A DNA stretch of 56,082 nucleotides from NCBI GenBank assembly GCA_018668695.1, contig JABJBS010000053.1:1-56082 (forward strand), written 5' to 3'. Under the pieces are notes generated by a model that saw only the letters and a list, made by a program, of their open reading frames with translations, searched no databases and was not told where the DNA came from. This document shows, in pieces, positions 14,738 to 19,702 of the stretch (position 1 is its first letter; the number at the start of each line of letters is the position of its first letter). Source of the DNA: Deltaproteobacteria bacterium (GTDB lineage Bacteria; Myxococcota; XYA12-FULL-58-9; JABJBS01). The translations under genes were made by a program, and so were the position numbers.

Positions 14738-15424
14738 TCAACCCGCAGGGCTCTCCACCGCCCAATAACCCAACCCCAATTGCTCATTAAAAGCTTCCAG
14801 GCTTTCTCGGTTAGGCGTCTTAATATCAAGAGCCAGCCTCACCACACGATTGTCATCAGATATAAAAGGCGGCTTGGGCTTTGTTTTAAAAACCTGCGGC
14901 CAAAGCCGAACTGGTGTGGCCACGAAAAGGTTTTGACATAAAGCGATTTGGCGAGAGCGCAGATGCAACTCCTTGGATATCTCTTGAAAAAATTTTGTGG
15001 TTTCTCTGCGTCTTAGCTGAGAGCCGCCGCTGCTAACTCTCTTTTTAGAGTCGAGCGTTTCTTGGGCTACGCCCTGCCCCTTACGAATCATGTATTTACG
15101 TATAACCTTCACATCCCGAAGCTCATCCACGGTGCCTAGCCCGAGAGCGGCATGACCCGATCTCACGAGTAGGACCAAATGCTCACTGAGTTCCAGAGGA
15201 AGATGCCTCAAATAGTCTTCAGTGGTTTCGTAGATAGGAAGGATGGGATGGATGCGAGGCGGCACAAACACAATGCGCTCATCTGGGTGATCGCCCTCTG
15301 CCACGAATCTACGCCGGTTTTTAGATGGCCTAAAAGCGTAACTACGCATGAGGGATTCAAGTGTAATCCCAGCGCTTCGCCAATCGAAACGCTCCATCAC
15401 CATTTCTTGAACCGACTGCCCCAT
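14738..15424 (-). CDS. Vms1/ANKZF1-type VLRF1 release-factor domain protein
   Basis: A 228-residue protein (counted from the ATG at 15424; a GTG at 15439 is also possible) that is almost entirely a VLRF1 domain. Compared with human ANKZF1 and yeast Vms1 it keeps, in order, a strand like LVRSGHAALG, then KVIRKYMIRKGQGVAQ, which matches the RYTVRAKRGTAQ region with its catalytic Gln (here GVAQ), then SSGGSQLRRRE, matching SAGANLRRYNE, and finally a segment DDNRVVRLALDIKTPNRESL matching the RLWDIPFATRRPT region. These eukaryotic proteins cut peptidyl-tRNA on stalled 60S subunits in ribosome quality control. Zinc-finger, ankyrin and VCP-binding parts are absent. It lies 44 bases after the HEAT-like gene with no terminator between. 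Identification is from remembered motifs. Confidence 0.75.
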   Translation of the reverse strand: MGQSVQEMVMERFDWRSAGITLESLMRSYAFRPSKNRRRFVAEGDHPDERIVFVPPRIHPILPIYETTEDYLRHLPLELSEHLVLLVRSGHAALGLGTVDELRDVKVIRKYMIRKGQGVAQETLDSKKRVSSGGSQLRRRETTKFFQEISKELHLRSRQIALCQNLFVATPVRLWPQVFKTKPKPPFISDDNRVVRLALDIKTPNRESLEAFNEQLGLGYWAVESPAG

Positions 15425-15483
15425 GGCAGAATCTAACACGCTCGTTTCACAAAGCGTAAGATTACCGACGTGAAAGTCTGGAA

Positions 15484-16554
15484 TTAACGACGACGACGTT
15501 CGGCTCTTTCAGCCAACGCCAAAGCAGACTGCAAGCGGCCGCGAGCCGCTGCGCTGAGACTTTTATCACTGACACGGTTTTTGAGCGAGTCCACGGCAAA
15601 ACCTCCTCCAACCAAAGACAGCGTCTCACCAATGGTTTCCAGTGACGTATGAGGTTTACCCACTTCAAGGAGTCCCACCAATACCGGTGTCACCTGCTTG
15701 CGCAGCAATGCAAGCTCCTGCTCTCTTCCACTCCAGTGCCAGCGGCTTAGAAGAAGACGCGTGCTGCCCATTGCTGCAGACTGAACTTTCCTAGAAGGAT
15801 CACTGAAGAACCGTTCTATCAGTCCCCACGCACTTGCCACACGAATATGTCCCACAGACCCGGCCAGCCATGCTCGAAGCTCTTCATCCTTTTCGGCCTC
15901 GGGCAGCATCGCGACCAAAACCTCTAACGCTTCAGGAGACCCCGTTTTCGCGAGAGCCGCCACTGCGCTTAAACGCACCGCACGCGAACTAAAACGAGAC
16001 TCAACGATATCCCTTAGGAAGAAGACGCGCGCTGGGTGCTCCGACTCGCCAATCGCGTGCAATAAACCCATTTGCAATGCCAGTCGTTCAGTACCTTCAT
16101 AAGCCGGCCCTGACCATGGATAGCTATTAAAGCCCATGTGATAAAGTTCCATCATAGATGCAGCGAGTTCAGACATTTTTTTAAGTTCACGTAGAACTGC
16201 CGGCTGCGGGCGACGCCACTTGAGATAATACTCAGCGCGAATCCCCTCTAACTGATAGAGGCGTTCGACTGAATCAGGGCTTTTCTCTTTTAAAAGGGTG
16301 GCCTCAGCAATAACCAGCTTTACCCAAGTCTTACTGTCATAATCTGATGCAACGCGAATACTCTGAGCCCACTGCTCCACGTTGTACTCACCGGACAACA
16401 TGTCATTTTGCGTGTGAGCATAAATCGTATCCTCTCCGCTATTCCAGGCATCCATCAAGGTACCTGCTGAGTCTTTGGCGAATACTACCGATGTATTCAA
16501 GAGAGAAAACAGAAGCATCATCCATACGTTTGCTAACATTTTTTTCATATTCAT
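15484..16554 (-). CDS. Exported HEAT-repeat-like protein
   Basis: A 356-residue protein. The ATG at 16554 lies four bases after the stop of the PAD gene, with AGGAG at a suitable distance, and opens a signal peptide ending near SVVFA. The mature protein is alpha-helical; residues about 180-340 contain HEAT/ARM-like helical pairs such as RAVRLSAVAALAKTGSPEA and VQSAAMGSTRLLL, each preceded by a short turn. Such solenoids bind other proteins. Tight coupling to the PAD gene suggests it works with, or is modified by, the deiminase; that is inference. No catalytic motif was seen. Confidence 0.75.
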   Translation of the reverse strand: MNMKKMLANVWMMLLFSLLNTSVVFAKDSAGTLMDAWNSGEDTIYAHTQNDMLSGEYNVEQWAQSIRVASDYDSKTWVKLVIAEATLLKEKSPDSVERLYQLEGIRAEYYLKWRRPQPAVLRELKKMSELAASMMELYHMGFNSYPWSGPAYEGTERLALQMGLLHAIGESEHPARVFFLRDIVESRFSSRAVRLSAVAALAKTGSPEALEVLVAMLPEAEKDEELRAWLAGSVGHIRVASAWGLIERFFSDPSRKVQSAAMGSTRLLLSRWHWSGREQELALLRKQVTPVLVGLLEVGKPHTSLETIGETLSLVGGGFAVDSLKNRVSDKSLSAAARGRLQSALALAERAERRRR

Positions 16555-16558
16555 CGCC

Positions 16559-18784
16559 CTACTCCTGATTCCACCAACGAAGCGATTCCGCTTCACGCTC
16601 AAAATTTGTTCCACAGTGAGCTTCGCCCATGAGTGTGTGGTAACTGAAAAAGACGTCAACAAAGTGTGCTTCAAGACCAAGTCCTGAGAGAGCTTCCAGT
16701 GTCGATGTTTGCCAGATATCTTCGCCGTTTACGTTCGGCCCTTCCGGATCGGGAATAAACAAAACCGTATCTGCCATCACAAGGTTTTGAATCCCTGGAT
16801 TATAAGCAATCGCTTCATCCACACCGCTCCAGTTTTCGTACTCATAAAGAACTGGCACGTACCGAAAATCTTCTTCTGTAAGCCCTATTTCATCCATTAA
16901 AATCTGTTGGACACCGTCGATCCGCGCCTGCGCCAAATCCTGATAAGCCATGAGATCTTCATCCCCGAGCACATCACTCGTGGTGGTTTCGTAATCCTGA
17001 TTACCCCATCCACCAGAACTCGCCCGGCCTTCAAAAATGGGCGCTTGCCCTGCCCCAGCCGCTTGAGCCTCTTGCAACTTCTCAATCGCTAGCGAAGGCG
17101 ATGCCATCAAAACGACCCACGGCCGCTCCCCTGCCGTCGCATTCCTATTGGGGAGCACGAGAAAAATCTCATCGATATGACCCACCGCCAACCACTCACT
17201 CGAAACCTCGAAAGTTGGTCCTTGCACCACTTGTGAATCGAAGAAGTCTCGTTGGCGCTGCGCCATTCTGCGCGTATTATCATAACCATAAAGCGAGCCA
17301 GCCTCGCCGCCGCCAACCACAATTCTCCCATAAGGAAAGTTTTGGCCCCCTACCCGGTGAGCCGGAATCACTTCTAGGTTTCCTCCAGAGTTCAATGAAG
17401 TTCCGGTCCCGTGCGGATAAACATAGCCAACCACATCATCGAGAAGCTCATTGGGAAGAAAGTTCGCCAAGCCGCCATCACGCTCCAGCTGCATATGGAC
17501 CTTCATGCTTTCAAAACCAGATGCCCCAGGCCATTGCGTGAAGCCTGTCTGCATACTGTCTTGAGCCCAGCGGTCCCAGCCGTAGGTCTGGCCCCCAATC
17601 TTATAAAGCTCAACTGAGTCCGGTAGATGTTCTTCAAAAGCACTCACCAGCGCCATGTTGTTATCGGCCTCACCCGGATAGGGAATGTCTAGTACAAATA
17701 AACGCTCCGCAGCCGCCATGTGGTGGCTTAAAATAATCGGGCTGCCTCTGAGCTCAACAACGTCACTGCTGATTAAAGTGTCACCATCGAACAAGTTCAG
17801 TGTAAGCGTCACTTCTCCGCTAAAGCCAATATAGCGTCCCAAAATGCCTTCAAGGTAAAGCTTCGTAGCGCCCTGTGCTAACCATTCCACCGAGATCTCT
17901 GCGCTGGATTCTCCGGCCTCGATAAGAGTCGAGATGTCTCCATTGGGCGCTTCTCTAAAGATGCGGATAAATCCTGCCCCATCAACATCGGTGCCGCCCG
18001 TTAATTCCAAAACCGCTCGGTGGGAACCATTGAGGCCGCCTACTTGGCTAAGAAGGACGGGTGCCATATCCAAGAGATCGTCCTCACCATCATGGCCCGG
18101 TTCAAGGCCATCTCGGGTGCCGTTGTTGTCATCGTCATCTAGGTTAGGTGGAAAAATTGCGCCGCCCTGCGCGCTCCAGCCGTCCTCAAATGCTTCATCC
18201 GCAGGCGTTACAACACCATCGCGGTTTGCATCCACCAAGATATTTGCGGTGAGTTCCTCACTGGGTAGCTCCGGCTCAGTGACGGTTACCACCTGTCCTA
18301 AAGCGATGTCCGTAAGCTCTTGCGGGTCTTTAACTTCAACCCGCGGCGTGGATTCGCCCACCGTCCAAACGGTATGGCTGACCACCGCAGCTGATTCAAA
18401 ATCAGTATCCCACGTGCCATCTCCATCATAATCCCATCGAAACACCAACGCTTGGCCTTCAGGATCGGAACTGAGGGAGGCATCCAACTGAATCTCAAGT
18501 GGCAAAACACCTGACACGGGTGTTACGACCAAATCGGCTTGGGGAGCGATATTTTCTGGCTCTGGCTCTGGCTCGGGTTCGTTACCATTGTCACCGGAAC
18601 CATCATCACCTGGGGGGCTCGGGGTATCGGGCGTTGTTTCCGACGATTGGTCATCGGGATCTTTCTCTACGCCCTCCAGGGTCGACTCAGAGCAACCCGC
18701 ACTGAGAGCGATAAAAAGAAGGAAAAGAACTGAATGTCGAAAATTGGACGCAATATGCCTATTGCTTAAGACAAGAGTTTGCAC
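16559..18784 (-). CDS. Protein-arginine deiminase (PAD) lipoprotein with PKD domain
   Basis: A 741-residue protein. Lipobox LSAGC puts the lipidated Cys at residue 31; an acidic Pro-rich linker follows (40-78). Residues 79-170 form a PKD domain with DYDGDGTWDT. Asp-rich calcium-type loops lie at 185-235. The C-terminal half matches the PAD family: WDRWAQDSMQTGF (Asp409, like Asp350 of human PAD4), NSGGNLEVIP and FPYGRIVVGG, GHIDE (His536 and Asp538, like His471/Asp473), and GEAHCGTN near the end (Cys724, like Cys645). All four catalytic residues are present, so active, calcium-dependent conversion of peptidyl-arginine to citrulline outside the cytoplasm is expected. The GTG start is supported by GGAGG seven bases upstream. 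First gene of a unit with the HEAT-like and probably the VLRF1 gene. Confidence 0.9.
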   Translation of the reverse strand: MQTLVLSNRHIASNFRHSVLFLLFIALSAGCSESTLEGVEKDPDDQSSETTPDTPSPPGDDGSGDNGNEPEPEPEPENIAPQADLVVTPVSGVLPLEIQLDASLSSDPEGQALVFRWDYDGDGTWDTDFESAAVVSHTVWTVGESTPRVEVKDPQELTDIALGQVVTVTEPELPSEELTANILVDANRDGVVTPADEAFEDGWSAQGGAIFPPNLDDDDNNGTRDGLEPGHDGEDDLLDMAPVLLSQVGGLNGSHRAVLELTGGTDVDGAGFIRIFREAPNGDISTLIEAGESSAEISVEWLAQGATKLYLEGILGRYIGFSGEVTLTLNLFDGDTLISSDVVELRGSPIILSHHMAAAERLFVLDIPYPGEADNNMALVSAFEEHLPDSVELYKIGGQTYGWDRWAQDSMQTGFTQWPGASGFESMKVHMQLERDGGLANFLPNELLDDVVGYVYPHGTGTSLNSGGNLEVIPAHRVGGQNFPYGRIVVGGGEAGSLYGYDNTRRMAQRQRDFFDSQVVQGPTFEVSSEWLAVGHIDEIFLVLPNRNATAGERPWVVLMASPSLAIEKLQEAQAAGAGQAPIFEGRASSGGWGNQDYETTTSDVLGDEDLMAYQDLAQARIDGVQQILMDEIGLTEEDFRYVPVLYEYENWSGVDEAIAYNPGIQNLVMADTVLFIPDPEGPNVNGEDIWQTSTLEALSGLGLEAHFVDVFFSYHTLMGEAHCGTNFEREAESLRWWNQE

Positions 18785-18964: not shown

Positions 18965-19702
18965 ATGGAATTCAAAGTATTCACTCTATCTGTCGCTCTC
19001 GTCTTCGTCTTTCTAATTGAAGGATGCCAGACCATCCCGGTAGCTCAATCAACTCTCAAAAAGCCGCGCCAAAACGCGGCACTCGTGCTCGATGGCAAGG
19101 AGCTTGATGTCTACTGGGACGACGGCGACACATTCGAGTTTCGTGAGCATGGCCGAAAAACGCGGGCAAGACTGCGCGGCTTTAACACACTCGAATCTTA
19201 TGGACCCGTGCACAGTTGGGGGCAATGGAAAGGCCGCGAACTCTATGAGGTCGCCTTTCAAGCGACGGCCCACGCTAAAAGCGAAGTTTGGGAATGCACA
19301 CGCCATCTTGGCAGTGGAGGCTATGGCCGCATACTCGTAGACTGTCCCAAATTGAGAGAGACTCTATTGTCAAAAGGCTTGGCCCATGTATTCTGGATGA
19401 ACGGCGCTGCTCCTGAAGAAATTCTAAAATTTCAACACCAAGCTATCAAAGAGAAGATCGGGATGTGGAGCAAAGGAGCTCCAAGCTGGGTACTCACGTC
19501 TATTCACTCCGCCAGCGAAGACAACCTACCCAATCCTTACAATCGGCAAGTTTCAACCCAGACGGGTGAAGCCATGGCCAGTACACATTCGAAACGGTAC
19601 CAAACGTGCCAGAACGTCTGCGAGCAAGGCTCTTGCATGCTCTACGTTCCCTACCGGATGCGCTACGGTAAAAACCGAGCCAAGTGCCTTATAAGCCGAT
19701 AG
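18965..19702 (+). CDS. Thermonuclease (SNase-like) lipoprotein
   Basis: A 245-residue lipoprotein (lipobox IEGC, Cys21) with an SNase domain from about residue 38 to 165. By comparison with staphylococcal nuclease, the catalytic Arg35, Glu43 and Arg87 correspond to Arg69, Glu77 and Arg122, and the calcium ligand Asp21 to Asp55 in DDGDTF. The second ligand Asp40 is replaced by Asn74 (RGFNTLE). The C-terminal 80 residues add a Cys-containing tail not in the classical enzyme. A role in degrading extracellular nucleic acid at the cell surface is likely. It converges on the acyl-CoA dehydrogenase gene with a 14-base overlap. Confidence 0.85.
   Translation: MEFKVFTLSVALVFVFLIEGCQTIPVAQSTLKKPRQNAALVLDGKELDVYWDDGDTFEFREHGRKTRARLRGFNTLESYGPVHSWGQWKGRELYEVAFQATAHAKSEVWECTRHLGSGGYGRILVDCPKLRETLLSKGLAHVFWMNGAAPEEILKFQHQAIKEKIGMWSKGAPSWVLTSIHSASEDNLPNPYNRQVSTQTGEAMASTHSKRYQTCQNVCEQGSCMLYVPYRMRYGKNRAKCLISR

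Follow-up and report, generated by a model that had tools for sequence, protein, structure and literature searches.

The window, the whole stretch of 56,082 nucleotides analysed here, carries on its minus strand a gene for a predicted lipid-anchored peptidylarginine deiminase (PAD) and, directly behind it, a gene for an exported HEAT-repeat protein, which we call the partner (Table 1). Judged by its relatives, the source genome comes from an uncultured lineage of Myxococcota at class level (8 genomes, including RIFOXYA12_FULL_58_15), related to the predatory myxobacteria, and it holds two PADs. The PAD gene has a GTG start at 18784, with a ribosome-binding site GGAGG ahead of it, and runs through 741 codons to a stop at 16559; a preliminary description of this DNA had these coordinates exactly right, the strand being minus, and treated the PAD gene alone, overlooking the adjoining gene. 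The partner ATG begins 4 nt past the PAD stop codon and its product also bears a signal peptide. At the PAD paralogue in the same genome, a partner relative lies next downstream, with a 4-nt ATGA overlap.

Table 1. Features of the PAD-partner locus, in window coordinates.
Feature	Position	Strand	Basis
PAD gene, 741-aa predicted lipid-anchored peptidylarginine deiminase	16559..18784	-	translation; PF03068 2.7e-80; human PAD1 7.8e-55
Signal peptide up to lipobox, predicted lipidated Cys31 (LSAG/C), Ser at +2	18692..18784	-	sequence, pattern and hydropathy
PKD-like domain (aa 79-158)	18311..18550	-	PF18911 1.9e-5, under Pfam gathering score; low pLDDT in model
PAD_M-like middle domain (aa 183-333)	17786..18238	-	PF08527 4.8e-4, sub-threshold; unbroken phmmer alignment with PAD1/PAD2
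Calcium cluster matching PAD2 sites 3-5 (N214, D216, D218, D225, D236, D239)	18068..18145	-	alignment to human PAD2
PAD catalytic domain (aa 338-739)	16568..17773	-	PF03068
Catalytic Asp409 (PAD2 D351) in WDRWAQD	17558..17560	-	alignment to human PAD2
Catalytic His536 and Asp538 (PAD2 H471, D473) in GHIDE	17171..17179	-	alignment to human PAD2
Nucleophile Cys724 (PAD2 C647) in GEAHCGTN	16613..16615	-	alignment to human PAD2
PAD stop / partner start junction GAATCAGGAGTAGGGCGATG	16552..16571	-	partner ribosome-binding site AGGAG overlaps end of PAD frame
Partner gene, 356-aa Sec-exported HEAT-repeat protein	15484..16554	-	PF13646 HEAT_2 3e-8; conserved PAD neighbour; alpha-solenoid model pLDDT 93.1

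By sequence comparison the protein matches the PAD family far beyond chance and is apparently a genuine, intact relative of the animal PADs, with deimination as its predicted reaction. The complete catalytic set named in the preliminary description aligns residue by residue with human PAD2, and the domain assignment held up both in the profile search, where PF03068 was matched over its full length (profile 2-395 of 395; 270.7 bits against a cut-off of 25), and in the structural comparison with PAD4. Moreover, PAD2 W348, Q350 and R373 are retained as W406, Q408 and R435, and the phmmer alignment to PAD1, the best among the solved human PADs, spans aa 155 to 740. In Pfam no other catalytic family was matched, the whole-domain likeness being to PADs alone, and NCBIfam held no model matching the protein. 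The AlphaFold model, built with 61 aligned sequences, reaches a pLDDT of 88.7 overall; values in the PAD part mostly exceed 90, and those in the linker and PKD region lie at 40-63. Foldseek ranked human PAD4 and PAD1 at the top (PAD4 1.4e-53), with TM scores of about 0.72-0.77 (0.72-0.76 for PAD4) and a large rmsd of 15-17 Å that probably reflects the low-confidence placement of the PKD region.

The N-terminal part is built differently from that of the animal enzymes. The N-terminus MQTLVLSNRHIASNFRHSVLFLLFIALSAGC fits a type II signal peptide by pattern and hydropathy, as had been noticed before; the lipobox lies behind a positively charged, hydrophobic N-terminus, RHIASNFRHSVLFLLFIALSAGC, lipidation itself being a prediction. 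Between the lipobox and the PKD-like domain runs a long acidic and proline-rich linker. The PKD domain proposed earlier is seen as a PKD_4 match of 25.0 bits, short of the 27-bit gathering score, and is likely, though sub-threshold, to be real. Pfam gave no PAD_N match in the protein, the linker and PKD-like domain occupying that region, and the PAD_M match (20.2 bits against a cut-off of 24.8) is likewise sub-threshold; among 20 PAD relatives, 11 match PAD_M at E<=0.01.

PADs of this kind are less rare in bacteria than the preliminary description, which regarded animal-type PADs there as rare, allowed: PAD relatives occur at a minimum of 494 loci in GTDB-representative contigs, and PADs are present in 54 of the 195 Myxococcota genomes examined and in 22 of the 294 from Planctomycetota. 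Myxobacterial and planctomycete PADs usually have a lipobox at the N-terminus. Lipid-anchored PADs are thus common in Myxococcota, and the lipid anchor of the window PAD is not exceptional. The PKD-like domain is present in only 4/20 relatives.

Both a 95-row tree and a 50-row tree with bootstrap, from which fungal sequences were left out, divide the PADs into the same three groups, each with bootstrap 100 in the smaller tree. Clade i holds the animal, cyanobacterial, Vibrio/Bowmanella and Methanophagales sequences, with some others at its base; clade ii holds Myxococcaceae, Polyangia and Streptomyces; clade iii, to which the window PAD belongs (bootstrap 100, SH-aLRT 98), holds uncultured Myxococcota, Planctomycetota, Holophagales and Cellvibrionaceae. 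The window PAD therefore stands outside the animal/cyanobacterial group, and also outside the myxobacterial type-2 clade with which the Streptomyces PADs group in these trees without fungal sequences. Cummings et al. (2021, PMC8826395) described an animal/cyanobacterial PADI clade whose outgroup was made up of fungal, actinobacterial and proteobacterial PADs; as our tree has no fungal sequences, part of clade iii may lie inside that outgroup.

The term animal-type, used in the preliminary description, does not fit a third-clade enzyme that also lacks calcium site 2 and the calcium-switch residue. In the alignment to PAD2, site 2 is replaced by S410, Q432 and L433 (E352 -> S410, D370 -> Q432), the site-1 ligand E354 is Q412 and the switch residue D389 is V451. 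The pattern is broadly that of the clade, where E352 is mostly S/T/N, D370 mostly Q and E354 often Q, and where several relatives have Asp at the switch position while the window protein has V451. Clade iii PADs retain the calcium cluster 3-5 together with an EF-hand-like loop at site 6. We consider calcium activation of clade iii PADs likely from these retained residues, but with site 2, D389 and E354 changed it may differ or be weaker, and it would probably follow a route other than the PAD2 switch mechanism.

Compared with vertebrate PAD1-PAD4 (PF08526-PF08527-PF03068), the window PAD shares the catalytic domain, the four catalytic residues, the substrate Trp and Arg, calcium sites 3-5 and the fold. 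It differs in having a lipobox, linker and PKD-like domain and predicted export in place of a detected PAD_N, in the lost site 2 and switch D389, and in its adjoining HEAT partner gene. Porphyromonas gingivalis PPAD is a secreted bacterial protein deiminase of the pentein superfamily. It is, however, an extended agmatine-deiminase relative without PAD_N and PAD_M (PMC8826395), whereas the window protein belongs directly to the PAD family and has a PAD_M-like region. Another bacterial relative is the cyanobacterial PADI, a PAD_M-PAD_C enzyme that was shown to be active (Cummings et al., 2021, PMC8826395); the cyanobacterial copies fall in another clade (bootstrap 100) and have neither lipobox nor partner. 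The actinobacterial/fungal and proteobacterial PADI type resembles the window PAD in the loss of calcium site 2 and the lack of PAD_N, the window protein too has His-His near the PAD_M/PAD_C junction, and the myxobacterial members of that type are lipobox proteins with the same HEAT partner. The type forms a separate clade, has mostly DQW/DLW where the window clade has DRW, carries F/Y at the PAD2 E352 position, and includes Streptomyces members without a partner.

The partner is modelled with confidence as an alpha-solenoid, its closest structures being artificial alphaRep and other HEAT-repeat proteins, from which it differs by an N-terminal motif of its own, a W-x-W signature and a gap in profile score. 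In NCBIfam it gave only a sub-threshold match to phycobilisome NblB. The most conserved and informative positions are the W-x-W motif (W272, W274), R114 and R285, a conservation that is not explained by generic HEAT repeats.

A profile iterated from the window partner was searched in 8,378 ORF stretches of 102 PAD loci. It gave 72 matches, every one adjoining a PAD (69 directly downstream and 3 upstream). Across the 195 Myxococcota and 294 Planctomycetota genomes the partner was present in 61/76 PAD-positive and 1/413 PAD-negative genomes. Taken by phylum, with kinship ignored in both tests, the counts are 47/54 against 1/141 in Myxococcota (Fisher 2e-36) and 14/22 against 0/272 in Planctomycetota (Fisher 1e-18), where all 14 partners lie downstream of the PAD on the same strand. 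The idea that the profile merely collects generic HEAT proteins was discarded in view of its specificity at PAD loci and of the whole-genome score gap, which in the Planctomycetota genomes separates partners at >=167 bits from generic HEAT proteins at <=74. The start and stop codons overlap by exactly 4 nt in 47 of 60 non-redundant PAD-partner loci. PAD and partner distances are correlated (Mantel r=0.89 overall, 0.73 and 0.84 within clades), a parallel divergence that would also follow from the shared inheritance of adjoining genes alone and so leaves contact unproven. By a simple pattern, and with several N-termini truncated, a lipobox was found in 42/63 PADs with a partner as against 3/28 without. 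An all-against-all comparison of flanking ORFs revealed no conserved PAD neighbour across genera besides the HEAT partner; the remaining clusters had the look of shadow ORFs or of synteny between closely related genomes and were set aside.

The coupling has exceptions. No strong partner match was found anywhere in the genomes of the partnerless PADs of Vibrio, Bowmanella, two Cellvibrionaceae, Nannocystis, two cyanobacteria and Methanophagales. Active-looking PADs without a partner occur in Streptomyces, in cyanobacteria and at two further loci (L043, L068), so the partner is not chemically essential to PADs in general. One paralogue, L050 (G027:C8:307500-320000), retains none of the four catalytic residues (N, G, G, D stand in their place) and lacks a partner; its genome holds two intact PAD paralogues beside this pseudoenzyme. 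In five Myxococcaceae (G057, G443, G463, G074, G458) the PAD matches are split, weak or fragmentary and there is no partner, which suggests decay of the pair. A single orphan member of the partner family (L134 5365-6186) lies in a genome, G043, with no detectable PAD. At the base of the animal/cyanobacterial side, the PADs of L080, L083, L087 and L095 are followed by a different coupled protein of 225-284 aa; these proteins are alike by eye, barely or not at all match the HEAT partner profile, and are perhaps a second partner type.

We think it fairly probable that the locus encodes a calcium-binding deiminase at the cell surface together with a dedicated helical-repeat protein with which it works, the biochemical role given to the latter being inferred. 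The PAD, a guanidino-modifying enzyme with a pentein-fold catalytic domain, would be exported by Sec, lipidated at Cys31 and tethered at the cell envelope via the linker and PKD-like domain, and calcium bound in the middle-domain cluster (sites 3-5) would help to shape the active site. Cys724 would then attack the guanidinium of a peptidyl arginine bound by Asp409 and Asp538, with His536 as acid/base, releasing ammonia and forming citrulline. Citrullination of extracellular proteins by this enzyme is plausible, and envelope, matrix or foreign proteins would be candidate substrates. The Sec-exported solenoid, made together with the PAD from one operon, would most likely be a dedicated binding partner, either a scaffold, a folding or activation factor, or a substrate adaptor. 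Three observations lead us to favour this role: translational coupling of the two genes is kept across phyla, a partner without a PAD is very seldom seen, and PADs that are cytoplasmic, or catalytically dead as at L050, tend to lack a partner.

The same facts may be read more boldly or more sparingly. Since a co-exported partner occurs almost only beside PADs in two phyla, extracellular bacterial citrullination may be a two-protein system, and since PAD_N is absent from window-type enzymes, the partner might do part of the work that PAD_N does in animals. In its full form, with a lipid-anchored PAD and an obligate HEAT cofactor that replaces the role of PAD_N and calcium site 2 in regulation or substrate docking, this proposal is tentative and we would put it at somewhat under an even chance. 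If it is true, the system is shared by at least Myxococcota and Planctomycetota and is older than the split of two of the three PADI clades. The sparing reading, a stand-alone surface PAD whose HEAT neighbour is just expressed alongside it in the same compartment, for instance as its main substrate, appears unlikely to us. The near-invariant partner arginines R114 (45/47 rows) and R285 (43/47) could indeed be modification sites, and Streptomyces, cyanobacterial and Vibrio PADs do without a partner; yet the W272/W274 W-x-W motif together with the arginines resembles a binding site more than loose target arginines, and the coupling is kept across phyla.

Two other explanations change the function of the enzyme itself. 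Pentein enzymes act on diverse substrates, and calcium site 2 and the switch residue are unlike those of animal PADs, which would suit a domain that now acts on a small guanidino compound or catalyses some other guanidine-modifying reaction; but the retention of Trp406 and Arg435, the whole-domain similarity to PADs only and the lack of any other catalytic Pfam family make this quite improbable. An interbacterial toxin and immunity pair, in which the PAD modifies surface proteins of competitors or prey and the HEAT protein protects the producer, would accord with two tightly coupled, exported genes and with the many predatory myxobacteria among the holders, but we give it hardly any credence. 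A Pfam search of the PAD showed no toxin-delivery domain, the architecture is single and conserved with no polymorphic tip, the pair also occurs in Planctomycetota, and there is only the one orphan partner. PADLOC, moreover, gave no match to the PAD and, for the partner, only a trivial one to HEAT, and a defence system was rejected on the same result. The reading of a surface deiminase with a dedicated partner is thus the one that we retain.

Citrullination has a central place in human autoimmunity and in chromatin biology, and the animal PADs are thought to come from bacteria. Since PADs in bacteria were already known, the window enzyme alone is a new member of the family and the pair is the new aspect: a coupled partner that tracks the PAD through two phyla offers a concrete handle on the bacterial role, and the third clade matters for the PADI tree on which the argument for horizontal transfer into animals has drawn. 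In the open-access literature we found neither the third clade nor the HEAT partner nor a lipid-anchored type of PAD mentioned, and no description of the PAD-HEAT pair. The same pair is present in cultured strains of Myxococcus and Polyangium, which makes the question directly testable.

Around the pair, a minus-strand gene about 45 bp downstream of the partner (14738-15439) matches bVLRF1 (4.6e-21), a release factor family that is named for Bacteroidetes and here lies in a Myxococcota genome; by the flanking-ORF comparison it is not conserved next to other PADs. The divergent neighbour on the plus strand (18965-19702) is a predicted lipoprotein with a weak, sub-cut-off Staphylococcal-nuclease match (7.6e-4). 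Elsewhere, on two Methanophagales contigs, L107 (3350-6656) and L122 (350-3644), a protein-glutamine gamma-glutamyltransferase (TGL, about 4e-98) is followed at a short distance downstream by a cytoplasmic-type PAD, an arrangement that recalls the pairing of PAD and transglutaminase in animal skin. A single archaeal PAD match was earlier dismissed as misattributed (Cummings et al., 2021, PMC8826395); the presence of FmdE on one Methanophagales PAD contig suggests real archaeal DNA.
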